This document shows, one piece after another, positions 23,639 through 34,572 of a stretch of 46,850 nt of DNA. Below the pieces are notes generated by a model, which saw nothing but the letters and a program-made list of their open reading frames with translations, ran no database searches and had not been told where the DNA came from. Source of the stretch: Acaryochloridaceae cyanobacterium SU_2_1 (lineage in GTDB: Bacteria; Cyanobacteriota; Cyanobacteriia; Thermosynechococcales; Thermosynechococcaceae); contig JAAUUW010000006.1 of assembly GCA_012030735.1 (NCBI GenBank), forward strand, positions 1 to 46,850, given 5' to 3'. The translations under genes and the position numbers were made by a program. The stretch's first letter is position 1, and each line of letters starts with the position of its first letter.

Positions 23639-24701
23639 ATGGCTAGCGAGCGTTCTACCAACCCCGAAAAAGATAAAGCACTAGAGGTGGTGCTGAATCA
23701 AATTGAGCGCACCTTTGGGAAAGGATCAATCATGCGATTAGGGGATGCTACCCGCATGAGGATCGAGACTATTTCCACGGGAGCCTTAACTTTAGATTTG
23801 GCCCTTTGGTGGTGGTTTACCCAAGGGAAGAGTCATTGAAATCTACGGTCCAGAAAGCTCGGGTAAAACTACCCTTGCCCTGCATGCCATTGCTGAAGTG
23901 CAGAAAACGGGGGGTGTGGCGGCCTTTGTGGATGCCGAACATGCCTTAGATCCTGCCTATGCCTCTGTGTTGGGGGTTGATACAGAAAATCTTTTAGTGG
24001 CTCAGCCAGATACGGGAGAATCGGCGCTGGAAATCGTTGATCAGCTGGTGCGGTCCACCGCTGTGGATATTGTGGTCATTGACTCTGTAGCAGCCTTAGT
24101 TCCTAGAGCTGAGATTGAAGGCGAAATGGGGGACTCTCACATGGGCTTACAGGCGCGGTTGATGAGCCAAGCTCTCCGCAAAATCACAGGGAATATTGGC
24201 AAGACGGGTTGCACTGTGGTTTTTCTGAATCAACTTCGGCAAAAAATTGGTGTCACCTATGGCAATCCTGAGGTAACAACTGGCGGTAATGCCCTTAAGT
24301 TTTATGCCTCTGTGCGTTTAGATATTCGTCGAATTCAAACCCTAAAAAAAGGTACAGAAGAATTTGGAATTCGGGCTAAGGTCAAGGTAGTTAAAAATAA
24401 GATTGCGCCTCCCTTTCGGATTGGTGAATTTGATATTATTTTTGGCCAAGGGATTTCCACCGTGGGCTGCCTTTTAGATATGGCCGAAGAAACAGGAGTG
24501 ATGGTCCGCAAAGGTGCTTGGTATAGCTACAATGGCGAAAATATTGGCCAAGGTCGCGATAATACTGTGATTTACATGCAAGACAATCCTGATTTTGCTG
24601 AATCCCTTAGCCAGCAGGTTCGTGAAAAGCTAGAACTGGGAGTGGCAGTTTCAGCGAATACGGTGGCAGCGACCAAGAAAGGAAAATCTGAGGCTGATTA
24701 G
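23639..24701 (+). CDS. recA: Recombinase RecA, one frame break
   Basis: Homologous-recombination ATPase. ATG 23639 has GAGG upstream and begins [20 protein letters not shown]. Walker A is GPESSGKTT, Walker [21 protein letters not shown], and the L2 region [20 protein letters not shown] is intact. TTT at 23805-23807 has one T too many: with TT the protein reads [20 protein letters not shown] without interruption. As sequenced, translation would stop at 23837-23839, before Walker A. About 353 residues when repaired, normal for RecA. Either a sequence error or a recent pseudogene (a second copy elsewhere would then be expected). Confidence 0.9.
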
Positions 24702-24898
24702 GGATGTTACAGAGATAAAAGGCAGCGGTTTTCTAGTCGGAGTCATCCGGACTATTGCTATAAAGCCTTCTTGAGCTCAATGTCAGCTTATTCCTAGGTG
24801 CAGAAGGGTTACGAAGGATTCGCTTGGTTGGTTATCTCTACTTTCTATGCACAAAGAGCATGATTGTCATGCATAAATAACATTCGAGTTTAAGCTTT

Positions 24899-24912
24899 GT
24901 AGCAATTAATAC
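24899..24912 (+). promoter_or_regulatory. NtcA-binding site upstream of nirA
   Basis: GTA-GCAATTAA-TAC is a perfect GTAN8TAC box. TATCTT (a TAN3T -10 element) follows at 24936-24941, 23 bases downstream, the classic layout of an NtcA-activated promoter. Transcription would start near 24948. Confidence 0.85.
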
Positions 24913-24935
24913 TAACTCTCATAGGGAGTTCTCGA

Positions 24936-24941
24936 TATCTT
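24936..24941 (+). promoter_or_regulatory. -10 element of the nirA promoter
   Basis: TATCTT fits TAN3T at the spacing expected from the NtcA box at 24899-24912. Confidence 0.7.
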
Positions 24942-25025
24942 GCTAATAGATTATTTTGATCCAATTGATCGAATATCAGATCAATTTAGATCATAATCTC
25001 AGCCAATAGTTGCAGGGATCGGGTC

Positions 25026-26975
25026 TTGAGTAATAGTAGTGTCGAAGCAACTCAAAAACTCAACAAGTTTGAACGGTTTAAAGCGAAAAGATGGCTTAGA
25101 AATTTTGCCAGAGCTGTTCCATTTTGCCCAAATTGGTTGGGAGGCGATGGATGAAACTGATCTGACCCAGCGGCTCAAATGGGTGGGTTTATTTTTTCGA
25201 CCCATCACCCCTGGTAAATTTATGCTGCGCATGCGGACACCTAACGGTATTCTTAGCAGTGGCCAAATGCGAGTGCTCGCAGCGGTAGTTCAGCGGTATG
25301 GCGAGGATGGCTATGCCGACATCACAACTCGCCAAAATATTCAATTGCGGGGTATTCGGATTGAAGATATTCCCCATATTTTTAATCGATTTCAGCAAGT
25401 CGGATTAACGAGTATGCAATCGGGCATGGATAATGTCCGCAATATTACCGGATCGCCTGTTGCTGGTATTGATGCTGATGAGCTGATTGATACTCGGGGT
25501 CTGGTCCGCAATGTTCAGGACATGATTACTAATAACAGCCAAGGGAATTCGGCCTTTACCAACCTGCCGCGCAAATTTAATATTGCGATCGCAGGCGGTC
25601 GCGACAACTCTGTCCATGCTGAAATCAATGATATTGCCTTTGTCCCCGCCTATAAAAATGGAACGTTAGGCTTTAACGTTCTTGTCGGCGGTTTCTTCTC
25701 TGCTAAGCGCTGTGCCCCAGCAATTTCCATGAATGTTTGGGTCGATCACACCCAAGTAGTAGCCATTAGCGAAGCCATTTTAATTGTTTACCGAGACAAC
25801 GGCTTACGGGCCAATCGCCACCAAGCCAGATTAATGTGGTTGATTGATGAATGGGGTATTGACCGTTTTCGGGCCGCAGTAGAAACCCAAATGGGAATTC
25901 CCCTGTTATCTGCCGCTGAGAAAGATGAATTTGACTGGGACAAACGCGACCATATTGGCGTATATCCCCAAAAACAACCCAGCCTGAACTTTGTCGGTCT
26001 ACATATCCCGGTGGGGCGGTTCTATGCCGACGATATGTTTGAACTAGCCCGCATAGCCGAAGTTTATGGCAGCGGCGAAATACGGCTCACCGTTGAGCAA
26101 AATGTCATTATTCCTAATGTTTCTGATTCTCGCTTAGAGCCGTTAAGACAAGAACCTCTATTAGAGGTATTTAGTATCAATCCCGATCCCCTAGCTCGAG
26201 CCTTAGTCTCCTGCACAGGCAGCCAGTTCTGCAACTTTGCCCTCATTGAAACCAAGAACCGGGCTGTGGCCCTCATTGACGAACTTGAAAATGAACTAGA
26301 AGTTCCCAAACCAGTTCGTTTCCACTGGACAGGATGCCCCAACGCTTGTGGTCAACCTCAAGTCGCGGACATCGGCTTGATGGGCACCAAGGCCCGTAAA
26401 GATGGCAAAACCGTAGAAGCCGTGGATCTGTTTATGGGCGGCAAGGTTGGCAAAGATGCTCATCTCGGTGAAAAAGTGCGAAAGGGCATCCCCTGTGATG
26501 AACTCAAGGCCGTCTTAACAGATATTCTGATTCAGCAGTTTGAGGCTCAACCCCGAACCACCCCTCGTCTCCCCGCTCACACGGCCAGACTAGCCCGTCA
26601 GCGTAATCTGCAAACCACCATTGACCAAAACGGATTTGTGGCTCCAACCGCTCCAGCTGCTCCAACCGTTGCGACACCTGCTTCTGCCATTACCACTGCT
26701 GCTCCTCCTCAACCCGCCATTGTTCACTTTGCAGCATCTGGTAAGGAGGTGAACTGTGACGATAGTCAATCCTTACTGGAGATCGCTGAGGCCGCTGGGG
26801 TTGAGATCGAAAGCAGTTGCCAGTCTGGAACCTGTGGCACCTGTATCGCCAAGTTGGTGGAAGGTGAATTCCGGTATGAAGCAGATCCAGAGGGCCTAGC
26901 GGAAGAAGATGCATCAGCAGGGCATATATTAACCTGCATTGCCATCCCCTGGGCAAAGTCGTGCTAGATGCATAG
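25026..26975 (+). CDS. nirA: Ferredoxin-nitrite reductase with fused C-terminal [2Fe-2S] ferredoxin domain, two frame breaks
   Basis: Reduces nitrite to ammonium with six electrons from ferredoxin. The catalytic part has the sulfite/nitrite reductase repeats (GRFYADDMFELARIAEVY) and the siroheme/[4Fe-4S] cysteines in CTGSQFC and CPNACG. A Pro/Ala-rich linker then leads to a plant-type ferredoxin domain with CQSGTCGTC plus a last Cys in HILTCIAIP. Two single-base gaps are inferred: in AAAA 25086-25089, which moves the start to TTG 25026 (AGGGA upstream; MSNSSVEATQKLNKFERFKA), and in CCCC 26946-26949, which gives the ferredoxin ending PLGKVVLDA and stop at 26973-26975. Preceded by an NtcA box. 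Confidence 0.92.
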
Positions 26976-27045
26976 CTTTTTTTTGGCTGATCAAGCCACT
27001 ATTGGCTGATTTAATTTTTCATTCCTTCAGATCTATATTTTATAG

Positions 27046-27085
27046 AGCCCAGAGGTTTATCAATGTCAAAACCTCTGGGCTATTT
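27046..27085 (+). terminator. Strong terminator hairpin after nirA
   Basis: AGCCCAGAGGTTT pairs with AAACCTCTGGGCT, a perfect 13-base stem with a 10-base loop, followed by ATTTCGTT. It separates nirA from the porin promoter. Confidence 0.75.
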
Positions 27086-27160
27086 CGTTGACCTAAAGTC
27101 ACAGGTAGATGCAATTTAGACATAGTGTTAATGCACAAAATACATGCAATGAACTTTACT

Positions 27161-27174
27161 GTAGAAAAAGATAC
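27161..27174 (+). promoter_or_regulatory. NtcA-binding site upstream of the porin gene
   Basis: GTA-GAAAAAGA-TAC is a perfect GTAN8TAC box. TAAAGT (TAN3T) follows at 27197-27202, 22 bases downstream. Confidence 0.8.
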
Positions 27175-27280
27175 AAACTAACTTAAAAATATTCCTTAAA
27201 GTGAGCTGGAATTCTCTATAAATTGATCTTGAATTTCAGTCAAGTTCAGTATTGTTCCCGATGTGAGGTTAGTGAAACAT

Positions 27281-29077
27281 ATGTCAGAACGTTTTTCTTG
27301 GTGCCGACTGCTTCTAGGTACCAGTGTTTTTGGGATAGCAATTCTGAATTGCGTCTCTGCTCAAGGTATTTCTCAGACATCAAGGATTGATATCTCGTCA
27401 CAACAGTTAGATCTAGCCATCACTAGTGATCATGCTTTACCTACTTCTGCCTCTACTGGCAGGGTAGCAGATCAAGATCTCAACTTAGAATTAGCTCAGG
27501 CAGTTGAAAATTCTACGCTTGAGGTTCCTCAACCTTCGGTTACCGATATTGTGGGAGCAGAAAATCCGACTTATTTTCCCGCTGACCCTAGCTTGCATAC
27601 CTCAGATGACTTCCAAGCTCAGGTGACCTCTGTATCTCAACTATCCGATGTTCAACCTGATGATTGGGCTTTTCAAGCCATTCAATCTCTGGTAGAACGC
27701 TATGGTTGTGTAGCAGGCTACCCCGACGGCACCTTTAAGCCGGGTCGGGCAATGTCTCGTCGTGAAGCTGCTGCCCTAGTCAATGCCTGCCTAGACAATT
27801 TAAGTAATCGCTTCGCCACCAAGGAAGACTTAGATGCGCTCAAGGCCCTACAGGATGAGTTTGCCGCTGAACTTGCTACCCTCCGAGGCCGCGTGGATGG
27901 CTTAGAGGCTCGAGTAGCAACGGTGGAAGCTCAGCAGTTCTCCACCACCACTAAGCTTAATGGTGAAGTGATTTTTGCCTTTGGCGGCTTAGTCGGCGAT
28001 AACGTCAATACCGGTGCAGACATTGATGCCAATATTTCCTTTAACCAACGTACTCGGTTAAACTTTATCACCAGCTTTACGGGCAAAGATCGACTTTACA
28101 CACGGCTGCAAACCTCTAATCGGGCTCCAAACTTTGGTAACGCCTCCGGCACATCGCAAACTCGGTTAGCCTTTGATACGGGGAATACTGACAACAACTT
28201 CATCTTGGATCGCCTAGATTACAAGTTCCCGATTGGCAAAAATCTGGATGTGACTATCTTTGCCAATGCCGCTTTCCACCATTATTATGCAACCACCATC
28301 AATCCCTATTTTGAAGGGCTAGGGGGCGGCAAAGGTGCCCTTTCTTTCTTTGGTGAGCGCAATCCCATTTATCGGATTGGGACTGTTGGGATTCCTAGCG
28401 TTGCTGGAGTAGGGACAAGCTATACGGTTAATAAAGAGAATGAGTTCCGAATTGACCTAGGCTACCTAGCAGGGCGTGCCAATCAGGCGACTGCCACAAA
28501 TTTGGGCACTACTACCGATGGCGGGCTTTTTGGCGGTACCTATAGCTTATTGGCTCAAGCCAGCATTAAACCGACAAAAAATTCACAAATTGGCTTAACT
28601 TATATCCGCAACGATGCCCCTGATGGCAATATTCGTTTTGGCACAGGAACCGCCTTCTCTAATGTGCCCTTTGCTGGAAATCCTCTCAGTGGTAATTCCT
28701 TTGGTCTTGAAGGCACCTTTCAGGTCACAGACTGGTTGGCTGTGGGTGGATGGTTTGGCTATACAATCGCCCACGAAAGCGGCACTGGCAGAAAAGCCGA
28801 CATTATTAATGGGGCGATTAATTTTGCCTTTCCTGATCTGGGTATAGAAGGCGCTACGGGAGGCTTGATCTTTGGGGTACCGCCCACAGTAATCAACAAC
28901 GATGTTGTTGCGAGGGAAAACCCCGATCAGACTTACCATTTGGAAGCCCTCTACTCTTTTCCAGTCAATGACTATATCACCATTACTCCAGGTGTGATTT
29001 ATCTGATCAATCCAGAGGGCAACACTGCCAATAGCAATATTCTTGTAGGTGTAATTCGAACGACCTTCAAGTTTTAG
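27281..29077 (+). CDS. SLH-domain outer-membrane porin (OprB type), NtcA-linked
   Basis: About 598 residues. Signal peptide (RLLLGTSVFGIAILNCVSAQ), an acidic spacer, one SLH domain (LSDVQPDDWAFQAIQSLVER, YPDGTFKPGRAMSRREAAAL), a coiled coil (ATKEDLDALKALQDEFAAEL), then a beta-barrel ending in aromatic VGVIRTTFKF, the usual C-terminal strand. This is the typical cyanobacterial porin architecture; relatives are often labelled iron-uptake porin. ATG 27281 is chosen; GTG 27272 and 27263 are alternatives. It lies between nirA and narB with its own NtcA box, which suggests a role in passage of nitrate, nitrite or other nitrogen compounds through the outer membrane (inference). Confidence 0.88.
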   Translation: MSERFSWCRLLLGTSVFGIAILNCVSAQGISQTSRIDISSQQLDLAITSDHALPTSASTGRVADQDLNLELAQAVENSTLEVPQPSVTDIVGAENPTYFPADPSLHTSDDFQAQVTSVSQLSDVQPDDWAFQAIQSLVERYGCVAGYPDGTFKPGRAMSRREAAALVNACLDNLSNRFATKEDLDALKALQDEFAAELATLRGRVDGLEARVATVEAQQFSTTTKLNGEVIFAFGGLVGDNVNTGADIDANISFNQRTRLNFITSFTGKDRLYTRLQTSNRAPNFGNASGTSQTRLAFDTGNTDNNFILDRLDYKFPIGKNLDVTIFANAAFHHYYATTINPYFEGLGGGKGALSFFGERNPIYRIGTVGIPSVAGVGTSYTVNKENEFRIDLGYLAGRANQATATNLGTTTDGGLFGGTYSLLAQASIKPTKNSQIGLTYIRNDAPDGNIRFGTGTAFSNVPFAGNPLSGNSFGLEGTFQVTDWLAVGGWFGYTIAHESGTGRKADIINGAINFAFPDLGIEGATGGLIFGVPPTVINNDVVARENPDQTYHLEALYSFPVNDYITITPGVIYLINPEGNTANSNILVGVIRTTFKF

Positions 29078-29103
29078 AGCGTCGAGTCACTAAACAAAAA
29101 TGA

Positions 29104-29118
29104 CGGCTTCTAAAGCCG
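29104..29118. other. Small hairpin after the porin gene
   Basis: CGGCTT-CTA-AAGCCG; first of three hairpins between the porin and narB. Confidence 0.35.
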
Positions 29119-29139
29119 CCTAATTCTAGGAATAGATCG

Positions 29140-29172
29140 GCAGTTTAGGGAGCATTGGCCACCCTAAACTGC
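29140..29172 (+). terminator. Hairpin downstream of the porin gene
   Basis: GCAGTTTAGGG pairs with CCCTAAACTGC (11 bases, 11-base loop). No clear T-run; may stabilise the 3' end or terminate weakly. Confidence 0.5.
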
Positions 29173-29181
29173 AGTTAAATC

Positions 29182-29225
29182 AATCAGCCCAGGGAATGAT
29201 ACCTTACTGGGCTGATTTTGGAAAT
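29182..29225 (+). terminator. Terminator hairpin downstream of the porin gene
   Basis: AATCAGCCCAG pairs with CTGGGCTGATT (11 bases, 14-base loop), followed by TTGGAAATTTT. It likely ends the porin transcript before the narB promoter. Confidence 0.6.
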
Positions 29226-29361
29226 TTTATAGGGTTGACTAGAACTAGAAAAAATTGCTGATTTTACACTCTAAAACCAACTCGGTAATATTTATTTCTT
29301 GGGTTGGGTATGAGTGAGTTGCATGAAATCGATGACGAGACTGCATCGAGCATCATAATTA

Positions 29362-29375
29362 GTATTCAATCGTAC
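29362..29375 (+). promoter_or_regulatory. NtcA-binding site upstream of narB
   Basis: GTA-TTCAATCG-TAC is a perfect GTAN8TAC box 83 bases before the narB start. The best TAN3T (TAATGT) is only 15 bases downstream, so the -10 element is less certain than for nirA. Confidence 0.75.
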
Positions 29376-29458: not shown

Positions 29459-31681
29459 ATGACAATACCCGTCAAAACCTTGTGCCCCTATTGTGGGGTG
29501 GGCTGTGGATTAGAACTGCTGCCTCCTGCTTTACCAGGTAGACCCGTTAACCGGGATAGTACTGGTACGCCTATTTGGCGGGTACGAGGTGATCAGGCCC
29601 ATCCCTCTAGCAAAGGGCAAGTTTGTGTCAAGGGTGCAACCGTCGCTGGGGCTTTAGATAAGGATCGTCTGCGCTATCCGCTATTGCGGGACTCTCTCGA
29701 TCAACCCTTCCGGCAAGTGACTTGGGAGGAAGCGTTAGATCGCGTTGTCGGTGAACTGAAGGCTGTCTATAGCAGTCAAGGGCCGGAAGCGATTTGTATG
29801 TATGGCTCGGGGCAGTTTCAAACAGAGGATTATTATATTGCCCAAAAATTATTTAAAGGCTGCTTAGGCAGCAATAATTTTGATGCTAACTCTCGTCTAT
29901 GTATGTCTTCAGCAGTGGCAGGCTATATCCAGAGTTTTGGGTCTGACGGGCCGCCACCCTGTTATGACGATTTGGAGTTAACGGACTGTGCCTTCTTAAT
30001 TGGCACTAATACAGTTGAATGCCATCCGATTGTATTTAATCGGTTGCTGAAGCATCACAAGAAGAATCGCCATGTCAAAATAATTGTGGTTGATCCGCGA
30101 CGAACTAAAACGGCGGAGAAGGCGGACTTGCATCTGGCGATTAAACCTGGCACAGATATTAATCTGCTGAATGGGATTGCCCATTTGCTGATGCGCTGGG
30201 GAAAGCTTGATGCTTTGTTTATTGATGAATGTACCTCTGGCTTTGCCAGTTTTGTGAGTGTGATCAGTCAATATCCACCGGAGTTGGTGGCGAAAGATTG
30301 TGGCATTCGAGTCGATGAACTAGAGCAAGCAGCAAAGTATTGGAGTGACTCGAAGCGGGTGTTGTCGCTGTGGTCGATGGGGGTTAACCAATCTTCAGAG
30401 GGCACAGCAAAGTGCCGCACCATCATTAATTTGCATCTGATGACTGGAACTATTGGTAAGCCGGGATCTGGCCCTTTTTCCTTGACGGGTCAGCCGAATG
30501 CGATGGGGGGTAGAGAGGCCGGTGGCTTATCCCATATTTTGCCAGGGTATCGGGCGGTGAAAAACCCTCAACATCGTCGCGAGGTAGAAGAAGCCTGGGG
30601 ATTGCCGGAGGGGAGTATTTCACCTCAGCCCGGTTTGGCAGCTTGGGATATGATTCTGGGCTTAGAAAGCCAGACAGTGGGATTCTTCTGGGTGGCGGCT
30701 ACGAACCCAGCCGTGAGTATGCCTGATATTATCCGCACTAAGGCAGCGCTACGAAAGTCTAGGTTTACGGTCTATCAGGATACTTACTATCCGACGGAGA
30801 TGGTGGATTATGCTCATGTAGTTTTGCCTGCCTCCCAATGGGGCGAAAAAACTGGCGTGATGACCAATTCTGAGCGGGTGGTGACTTACTGTCCTGCTTT
30901 TCGGGAGCCTGTGGGTGAAGCGAGGGCAGATTGGGAAATCTTTGCGGAGGTGGGTCGCCGCCTAGGGTTTGAGCGAGAGTTTGCCTTTACTCGTTCTGCT
31001 GATGTCTATGCTGAGTTTGTGCAACTGACGCGCGATCGCATCTGCGATATGTCTGGCCTGAGTCATGAACGCTTACAAGCAGGCCCCATTCAATGGCCAT
31101 GTCCTGAGGGAGCCCATGGTGGGGGTGAAGATGCTATGGATACAGGAAAACGACTCTACACCGATCACAAATTTCCAACGGAGGATGGCCGCGCTAAGTT
31201 CTCGGCCTTCCATGCTCAGGGTTTAGCTGAACCTCCTGATCCCAACTATCCCTTTGTGCTCACCAATGGGCGACTCTATGGCCATTGGCATACCCAAAGT
31301 CGCACAGGTCGCATTGAAAAAACAGCCAGCATGCATCCAAATCCCTTTATTGAAATTCATCCTCGGGATGCCGCTAAAATTGGGGTGCAAGATGGAGAGG
31401 AATTGGAGGTGCGATCGCGGCGAGGCTTTGCTCGAGTACCTGCCCTAGTGACCAAGGCAATTGCACCAGGCACCGTCTTTATGCCCATGCATTGGGGAAC
31501 CCTCTGGGCTGATCATGCTGAGGTGAATGCCTTAACCCATTCAGAAGCCTGCCCCATTTTCCTTGGAGCCAGAACTGAAAGCCTGTGCGGTGCAACTGAT
31601 CCCACTACCTCTGGTTCAGGTGATCTTACCAAGTCAGGAAAAATCCCTGGCTGCTCATTAATCAAGCCTGTTTATCTCTAG
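29459..31681 (+). CDS. narB: Ferredoxin-dependent assimilatory nitrate reductase
   Basis: Molybdenum bis-MGD enzyme that reduces nitrate to nitrite in the cytoplasm. The N-terminal [4Fe-4S] cysteines are in CPYCGVGC and QVCVKG; the Mo-cofactor regions are typical ([47 protein letters not shown]), and the C-terminal domain includes [16 protein letters not shown]. 740 residues, as expected, no frame break. ATG 29459. No narM, nrt or molybdenum-cofactor gene adjoins. Together with NirA it carries out the two steps from nitrate to ammonium. Confidence 0.96.
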
Positions 31682-33764: not shown

Positions 33765-33888
33765 AGCCTGAGTCTAAGGTGATCAAGAGGGAGGGCAAAT
33801 CAACTAGCAACTGCTGCTAGGTTGCTTAAAATCTAGCATGCATGCCCATCTCTCTATAGAAAATTAAGAAAAAAGGGAAATAAGAAAA

Positions 33889-34300
33889 GAGCAGGCGGTA
33901 AGCCGGGTTCTGTTCTCTCGACGGATCAAGAGCAAAACAATGCGACTGTCCGTCGAGGGGTAGTTATCTATCTGGGACGCCTGTTACCAGAACGCCTCTA
34001 GCGGCTTCTCAAGCAAGAACAGGGAAAAGACCAACCATTGTTCTCATTGCCTTGCTCTCGACCGGGGTTTACCGAGCAACGCCTCTCGACGTTGCTGGTG
34101 CGCTCTTACCGCACCTTTGCACCCTTACCTGTATACCTTGAGGGGTTATCACACTCCCCAAGGTGCCATCGGCGGTATATTTCTGTGGCACTCTCCTCAC
34201 GGTCACCCGCACTGGGCGTTACCCAGCAAGTCTGGTCTTTCGAGAGTCCGGACTTTCCTCAGACCTGTGGCTACAAGTCCGCAACTACCTACTCCTGCTC
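33889..34300 (-). ncRNA. rnpB: RNase P RNA
   Basis: On the minus strand the gene starts GAGCAGGAGTAGGTAGTTGC and has the conserved AGGAAAGTCCGGACTC (P4 5' half) and ends AACAGAACCCGGCTTACCGC followed by CTGCTC, pairing the ends (P1: GAGCAGG with CCTGCTC). About 412 bases, the size range of cyanobacterial type A RNase P RNA. The conserved ACAGAA-GG-CTTA element near the 3' end is present. Frames in this interval are not genes. Confidence 0.95.
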
Positions 34301-34572
34301 TTTCCTTACTGTTTATAGGTAACATAGTTTGCCTGACGAAAAAAGTCCTTGGGCCTCGGCAAGGGGGGTTTTCCTTCGTAAAGAGTGAGATGCAGTCTTT
34401 CCCCTTTGAAAAAACCTTAAGATTACTGGTGTTTATGTATGACTTATGAATATGGTTGTGGTGACTCTCTCTAGACTGGCGATCGCATCTGCACAGTTTT
34501 CCACTGATCTTCCTCAGCAAAATAAGCGGATTTTTCCATCGCCTACCCATTGTGCATAAGGCTAAGAGCACT

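Follow-up and report, generated by a model that had tools for sequence, protein, structure and literature searches.

A putative NtcA- and NtcB-type promoter module shared by nirA, narB and an outer-membrane porin gene in an Acaryochloridaceae cyanobacterium

Why does the gene of an outer-membrane porin lie between a nitrite and a nitrate reductase gene, and is it expressed together with them as one operon or from a promoter of its own? Cyanobacterial nitrate uptake is usually told by way of the inner-membrane transporters NrtP and NrtABCD and the two reductases, and the crossing of the outer membrane is rarely treated. We analyzed a 46,850-nucleotide stretch of DNA (hereafter the window) of Acaryochloridaceae cyanobacterium SU_2_1, whose assembly (G000; 3.02 Mb, 87% complete) belongs to the same genus as six relatives, G001 to G006. 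Our analyses suggested that nirA, the porin gene and narB are likely to form three units with the same compound promoter, and that the porin is co-induced with the reductases, most likely as the outer-membrane entry for nitrate and nitrite. What is new is, first, the strictly spaced compound promoter and, second, a nitrate regulon with a conserved porin among its members; the promoter elements, their conservation, their fixed spacing and their specificity for nitrate-type genes were observed directly.

All three genes lie on the forward strand. nirA (25026..26967) codes a ferredoxin-nitrite reductase with a C-terminal 2Fe-2S domain (Pfam NIR_SIR, NIR_SIR_ferr and Fer2; NCBIfam NF007125); its mechanical open reading frame covers 25039-26967, and a frame check indicated TTG at 25026 as the likelier start, with a one-base frameshift near 25086. 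The SLH-OprB porin gene (27281..29077) has a mechanical reading frame from GTG 27263, while comparison with relatives made ATG 27281 the likelier start. The product carries PF00395 and PF04966 (Pfam OprB 1.1e-46, SLH 8e-10) and matches NCBIfam por_somb (NF033921) at 3.2e-151, with 504 bits against a cut-off of 100. narB (29459..31681; Pfam Molybdopterin 2.7e-66) codes an assimilatory nitrate reductase of the molybdopterin oxidoreductase type and is, over the compared part, 88-91% identical to the syntenic gene of the relatives. Besides nirA, frameshifts were seen in recA (near 23805-23839), ntcA (contig C35), ntcB (C32) and nrtA/nrtB/nrtC (C187); because they strike several genes, recA and ntcA among them, assembly indel errors are suggested rather than gene decay. 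The window also contains an RNase P RNA gene (Rfam RF00010) at 33883-34302 on the minus strand.

The preliminary description had placed a GTAN8TAC box upstream of each of the three genes, and perfect forward-strand boxes were found at all three places: GTAGCAATTAATAC before nirA (24899..24912), GTAGAAAAAGATAC before the porin gene (27161..27174) and GTATTCAATCGTAC before narB (29362..29375). As it had also stated, two of them are followed by a TAN3T element on the same strand, namely TATCTT (24936..24941), 23 bp past the nirA box, and TAAAGT (27197..27202), 22 bp past the porin box, and narB is without one at 22-23 bp, as are most of its relatives. Because TAN3T is absent, the predicted narB promoter is NtcA-like and not fully canonical. 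Bare GTAN8TAC shows no enrichment across the window (5 observed against 3.19 expected, with 19 of 100 shuffles reaching 5), so counting alone is no proof, and enrichment by count was dropped as evidence. When intergenic sequence with matching dinucleotide content was simulated, the upstream regions of all three nitrogen genes held a box in about 1 in 10,000 trials (probability ∼1e-4).

Upstream of each box we identified a second element that the preliminary description had overlooked: two 15-bp ATGCA-N7-CAT sites of the LysR-type T-N11-A form, 22 bp apart. These probable NtcB sites lie at 24847..24883 before nirA (24847-24861 and 24869-24883, forward strand), at 27109..27145 before the porin gene (27109-27123 and 27131-27145, forward strand) and, in reverse orientation on the minus strand, at 29310..29346 before narB (29310-29324 and 29332-29346), and each copy shows 0 of 16 mismatches to ATGCAN7CAT-N7-ATGCAN7CAT. 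The perfect tandem element has exactly three copies in the 3.02-Mb genome, which are the nirA, porin and narB promoters, and a reversed control gave none. A pair of TGCA half-sites, 22 bp apart and in a fixed register, stands upstream of almost every box. Among 25 promoters compared, the pair begins, with few exceptions, 52-54 bp ahead of the NtcA box; the 22-bp period gave a mean of 1.3 mismatches versus at least 4.1 at every other period from 16 to 39. Tandem element and NtcA box would most simply be read as an NtcB plus NtcA module, in which NtcB would be the binder of the tandem element and would probably turn general nitrogen control into nitrate/nitrite-specific control. The NtcB site of the Synechococcus elongatus nirA gene we take to read ATGCAAAAAACGCAT.

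The compound module of tandem element and NtcA box was found in 110 of 194 cyanobacterial genomes, and control matches were 0 in every genome, making it a specific pattern with which to search for members of the nitrate regulon. Genes read behind it were mostly nirA, then nrtP and nrtA; further ones code a formate/nitrite transporter, tetrapyrrole (siroheme-type) methylases, a NirB-like flavoprotein, a globin, a ResB-like protein and a CLC channel. The modules before ResB-like, globin-domain and CLC-type chloride channel genes (loci in G085, G040, G115, G012 and G105) mark these as possible further members of the predicted nitrate regulon. Only a handful of the ∼150 modules listed stand before porins; by coordinates, four further porins are directly behind a module (G043:C31, G046:C1, G012:C58 and G013:C1).

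Conservation in relatives, the test that the preliminary description itself had named, came out in favor of the boxes, which are kept at the same place within diverged surroundings. The order nirA-nrtP-porin-narB is found in G001, G002, G003, G005 and G006. The nirA box is kept in all five of these cluster copies and on G004 contig C361, the narB box in all six relatives read, and of their six porin boxes five are perfect and one reads GTGN8TAC. Distances from box to start codon are near constant (nirA ∼110-114, porin 103-113 and narB 83-102 bp), and in same-genus genomes the box core is 98-100% conserved versus a mean of 51-69% for the 60 bp upstream. nrtP, which directly follows nirA in the relatives, has no NtcA box of its own in G001-G006. 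In addition, G004 has nirA-nrtP on C361 and porin-narB on C302 behind unrelated genes, with all boxes retained. Hairpins had likewise been reported behind nirA and behind the porin gene, and they are real and stable on the forward strand, with weak T tails: a terminator-like hairpin of 13 bp in the nirA-porin gap (27046..27081; -22.7 kcal/mol, z -5.5) and two 11-bp hairpins 3' of the porin gene (29140..29172, z -4.7; 29182..29217, z -3.8). Intergenic hairpins recur in several relatives with different sequences, and they would terminate transcription.

Three other readings of these promoters have to be weighed. That the boxes are chance matches is almost inconceivable: their frequency in the window is close to expectation, but their position, their conservation and the perfect compound module at just these three places of the genome refute it. 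A single nir operon, with nirA, porin and narB transcribed mainly from the nirA promoter and the inner boxes minor, we consider quite improbable. The genes share a strand with gaps of only ∼300-380 bp, and read-through from nirA is possible because the T tails of the hairpins are weak; against this, both inner promoters are conserved, hairpins between the genes recur in the relatives, and the porin-narB boxes of G004 are kept on another contig than nirA-nrtP. Because G004 retains every box although the two gene pairs are apart, and with one box per gene at constant distance in G001-G006 and nrtP lacking a box, each of nirA, the porin gene and narB is probably transcribed as a unit of its own under NtcA/NtcB control, in agreement with the three independent promoters first proposed for the locus. 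It is also unlikely, if a little less so, that only NtcA acts here and that the TGCA-rich upstream element binds another LysR-type regulator instead of NtcB. T-N11-A sites are used by other LysR-type regulators as well, but the compound module stands, class-wide, overwhelmingly before nitrate/nitrite genes, and ntcB is linked to the porin in three sister-genus genomes.

Membership of the porin in the regulon was examined by defining an NtcA-type promoter as a box with at most one mismatch and TAN3T at 22-23 bp. Such a promoter precedes 12 of 12 best-hit porins, that of the window included, versus 5 of 36 other fetched porins. The Fisher p for this contrast is 1e-6, computed with 13 "orthologs" that include one miscounted paralogue, and as the 12 porins share ancestry and are thus not independent, its true weight is less than that p suggests. 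In the porin tree, 11 of the 12 fall into one clade (98/100 support), in which the NtcA-type promoter is kept in all seven genomes of the genus and four of sister genera. The porin of G043 groups with those of G046, G053 and G050 in a different clade, so NtcA-type promoters occur in at least two porin clades. A plasmid-borne porin was considered and rejected, its only matches being below 60% identity.

The genomic neighborhood points in the same direction. In G012, G014 and G017 the porin gene has ntcB, a cnaT-like gene and mobA as neighbors, in the first two also narM, and in G043 the porin gene lies behind narM; the clade porins of G009 and G015 keep the NtcA-type promoter with nitrate genes not next door. 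As a separate observation, G050 (C1:2866000-2883000) has nirA-nrtP(part)-narB-narM-porin-ntcB-cnaT-mobA on one strand, with a second-clade porin inside the nitrate cluster. Across 80 nirA loci of named cyanobacteria, just 2 have a porin in the neighborhood, both in Acaryochloris, so a general nirA-porin linkage in Cyanobacteria was dropped. The same count bears out the view that a porin member is uncommon, but it is not unique, since the porin clade is nitrate-linked and has NtcA/NtcB-type promoters in sister genera too. The other half of that view, that a split nitrate regulon is itself uncommon, did not hold: the nitrate genes of marine Synechococcus WH7803 are predicted to be under several separate NtcA promoters, with deviating boxes accepted (PMC9430850). 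Split NtcA promoters are ordinary, and the porin membership is the unusual part.

Regulators and transporters were located elsewhere in the genome. ntcA lies at C35:1234-1814 in two overlapping frames. The gene at C32:1517-2481, 67-70% identical over two frames to the NtcB-like protein of G014, is preceded by an NtcA box and shares its contig with narM; it is assigned as putative ntcB from its linkage to cnaT-like, mobA and narM genes. nrtP, a NarK-type MFS nitrate transporter gene between nirA and porin in the relatives, is missing at 26968-27262 of the window, and no NrtP homologue was found in the 87% complete genome. On C187, nrtC/nrtD-type genes above the family cut-off adjoin nrtA- and nrtB-like fragments, with an NtcA-like site ∼700 bp upstream. 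Within C187:32000-46000, ∼600-640 bp upstream of nrtA and downstream of an NtcA-like box, about three head-to-tail copies of TTTTGCATCGGTCATTAC follow one another with an 18-bp period. In marine or saline strains NrtP is as a rule the only one of the two transporters, and freshwater strains carry one, the other or both (PMC4390861); because transporter type follows habitat in this way, the swap from NrtP to an nrtABCD-type transporter may reflect habitat as well.

Taken together, the promoter architecture would work as follows. The class II NtcA site, ∼41 bp upstream of the expected start, would sense nitrogen hunger (2-oxoglutarate), and the two tandem LysR-type sites directly upstream of it, 22 bp or two helical turns apart, would recruit NtcB as nitrite-responsive activator. 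Under a shortage of ammonium with nitrate or nitrite available, the porin would come on along with both reductases, and in the relatives NrtP would be induced along with them. The porin would most likely be the outer-membrane entry for nitrate/nitrite, and the shared switch suggests that this entry may be controlled together with the remaining nitrate uptake.

What the porin carries is the less certain part. That its clade forms a channel dedicated to nitrate/nitrite in the outer membrane, co-induced with the reductases and the inner-membrane transporter through NtcA and NtcB, we hold at slightly below an even chance; if true, part of the Cyanobacteria have nitrate regulons that reach out to the outer membrane. 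Its main competitor, a tenable though weaker proposition, is a general or iron-type SLH-OprB porin that is induced during nitrogen or nitrate growth for a different reason, e.g., iron for the siroheme and Fe-S groups of NirA and NarB, in which case the promoter is read correctly and the cargo is not nitrate. This rival stays alive because the NCBIfam family is named "iron uptake porin"; metal starvation also moves most porin-like genes in Anabaena (PMC9705863), and the porin clade is without an overall shift to positive charge (barrel net charge of the clade versus others, Mann-Whitney p 0.92). Positive charge was thus dropped as a sign of anion selectivity, the charge statistics showing no anion channel. 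On the other side, within the genus, and also in three genomes of sister genera, the genomic partners are nitrate genes, and the promoter is of the nitrate-specific compound type, which is more than an NtcA box. Nitrate may cross general porins anyway.

Six clade-specific basic residues (R287, K357, R366, R396, R405 and R458) count as a hint only, because clade-specific acidic and other residues are similarly many. The AlphaFold model shows, at low confidence, a helical coil and ∼15 barrel strands; with a mean pLDDT of 63 it does not allow these residues to be assigned to the pore, and among solved structures only the SLH parts of the porin found a match by sequence. With its full nitrate-type promoter, cross-genus conservation and nitrate-gene linkage, the porin gives one named candidate for the outer-membrane step.

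Several known systems resemble this arrangement. Canonical class II NtcA promoters likewise have GTAN8TAC followed by TAN3T ∼22 bp downstream before nirA, as in the published Anabaena nirA site GTAGCTACTTATAC-N22-TAACCT (PMC3898017), whereas here the same kind of promoter also stands before an outer-membrane porin gene in the nitrate cluster. WH7803 is similar in having its nitrate genes in several predicted units and differs in that no porin is mentioned for it (0 occurrences in PMC9430850). The one precedent for a porin gene bound by NtcA is the OprB-type gene all7614 of Anabaena PCC 7120 with the NtcA site GTATGAAATAGTAC found by ChIP-seq (PMC3898017), and that study ties NtcA, not NtcB, to a porin. 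NtcB of Synechocystis (slr0395) is described, in the summary of Aichi et al. (2001) given by PMC5318462, as a nitrite-responsive LysR-type activator of nitrate assimilation genes; the targets here are of the same kind and the T-N11-A elements fit LysR-type sites, but the predicted targets include a porin, and our 22-bp tandem geometry comes from sequence analysis. Finally, the porin shares with the SomA/SomB-type por_somb family its SLH domain, OprB barrel and full-length family match, and it differs in belonging to a clade of its own, with nitrate-gene linkage and NtcA/NtcB-type promoters.
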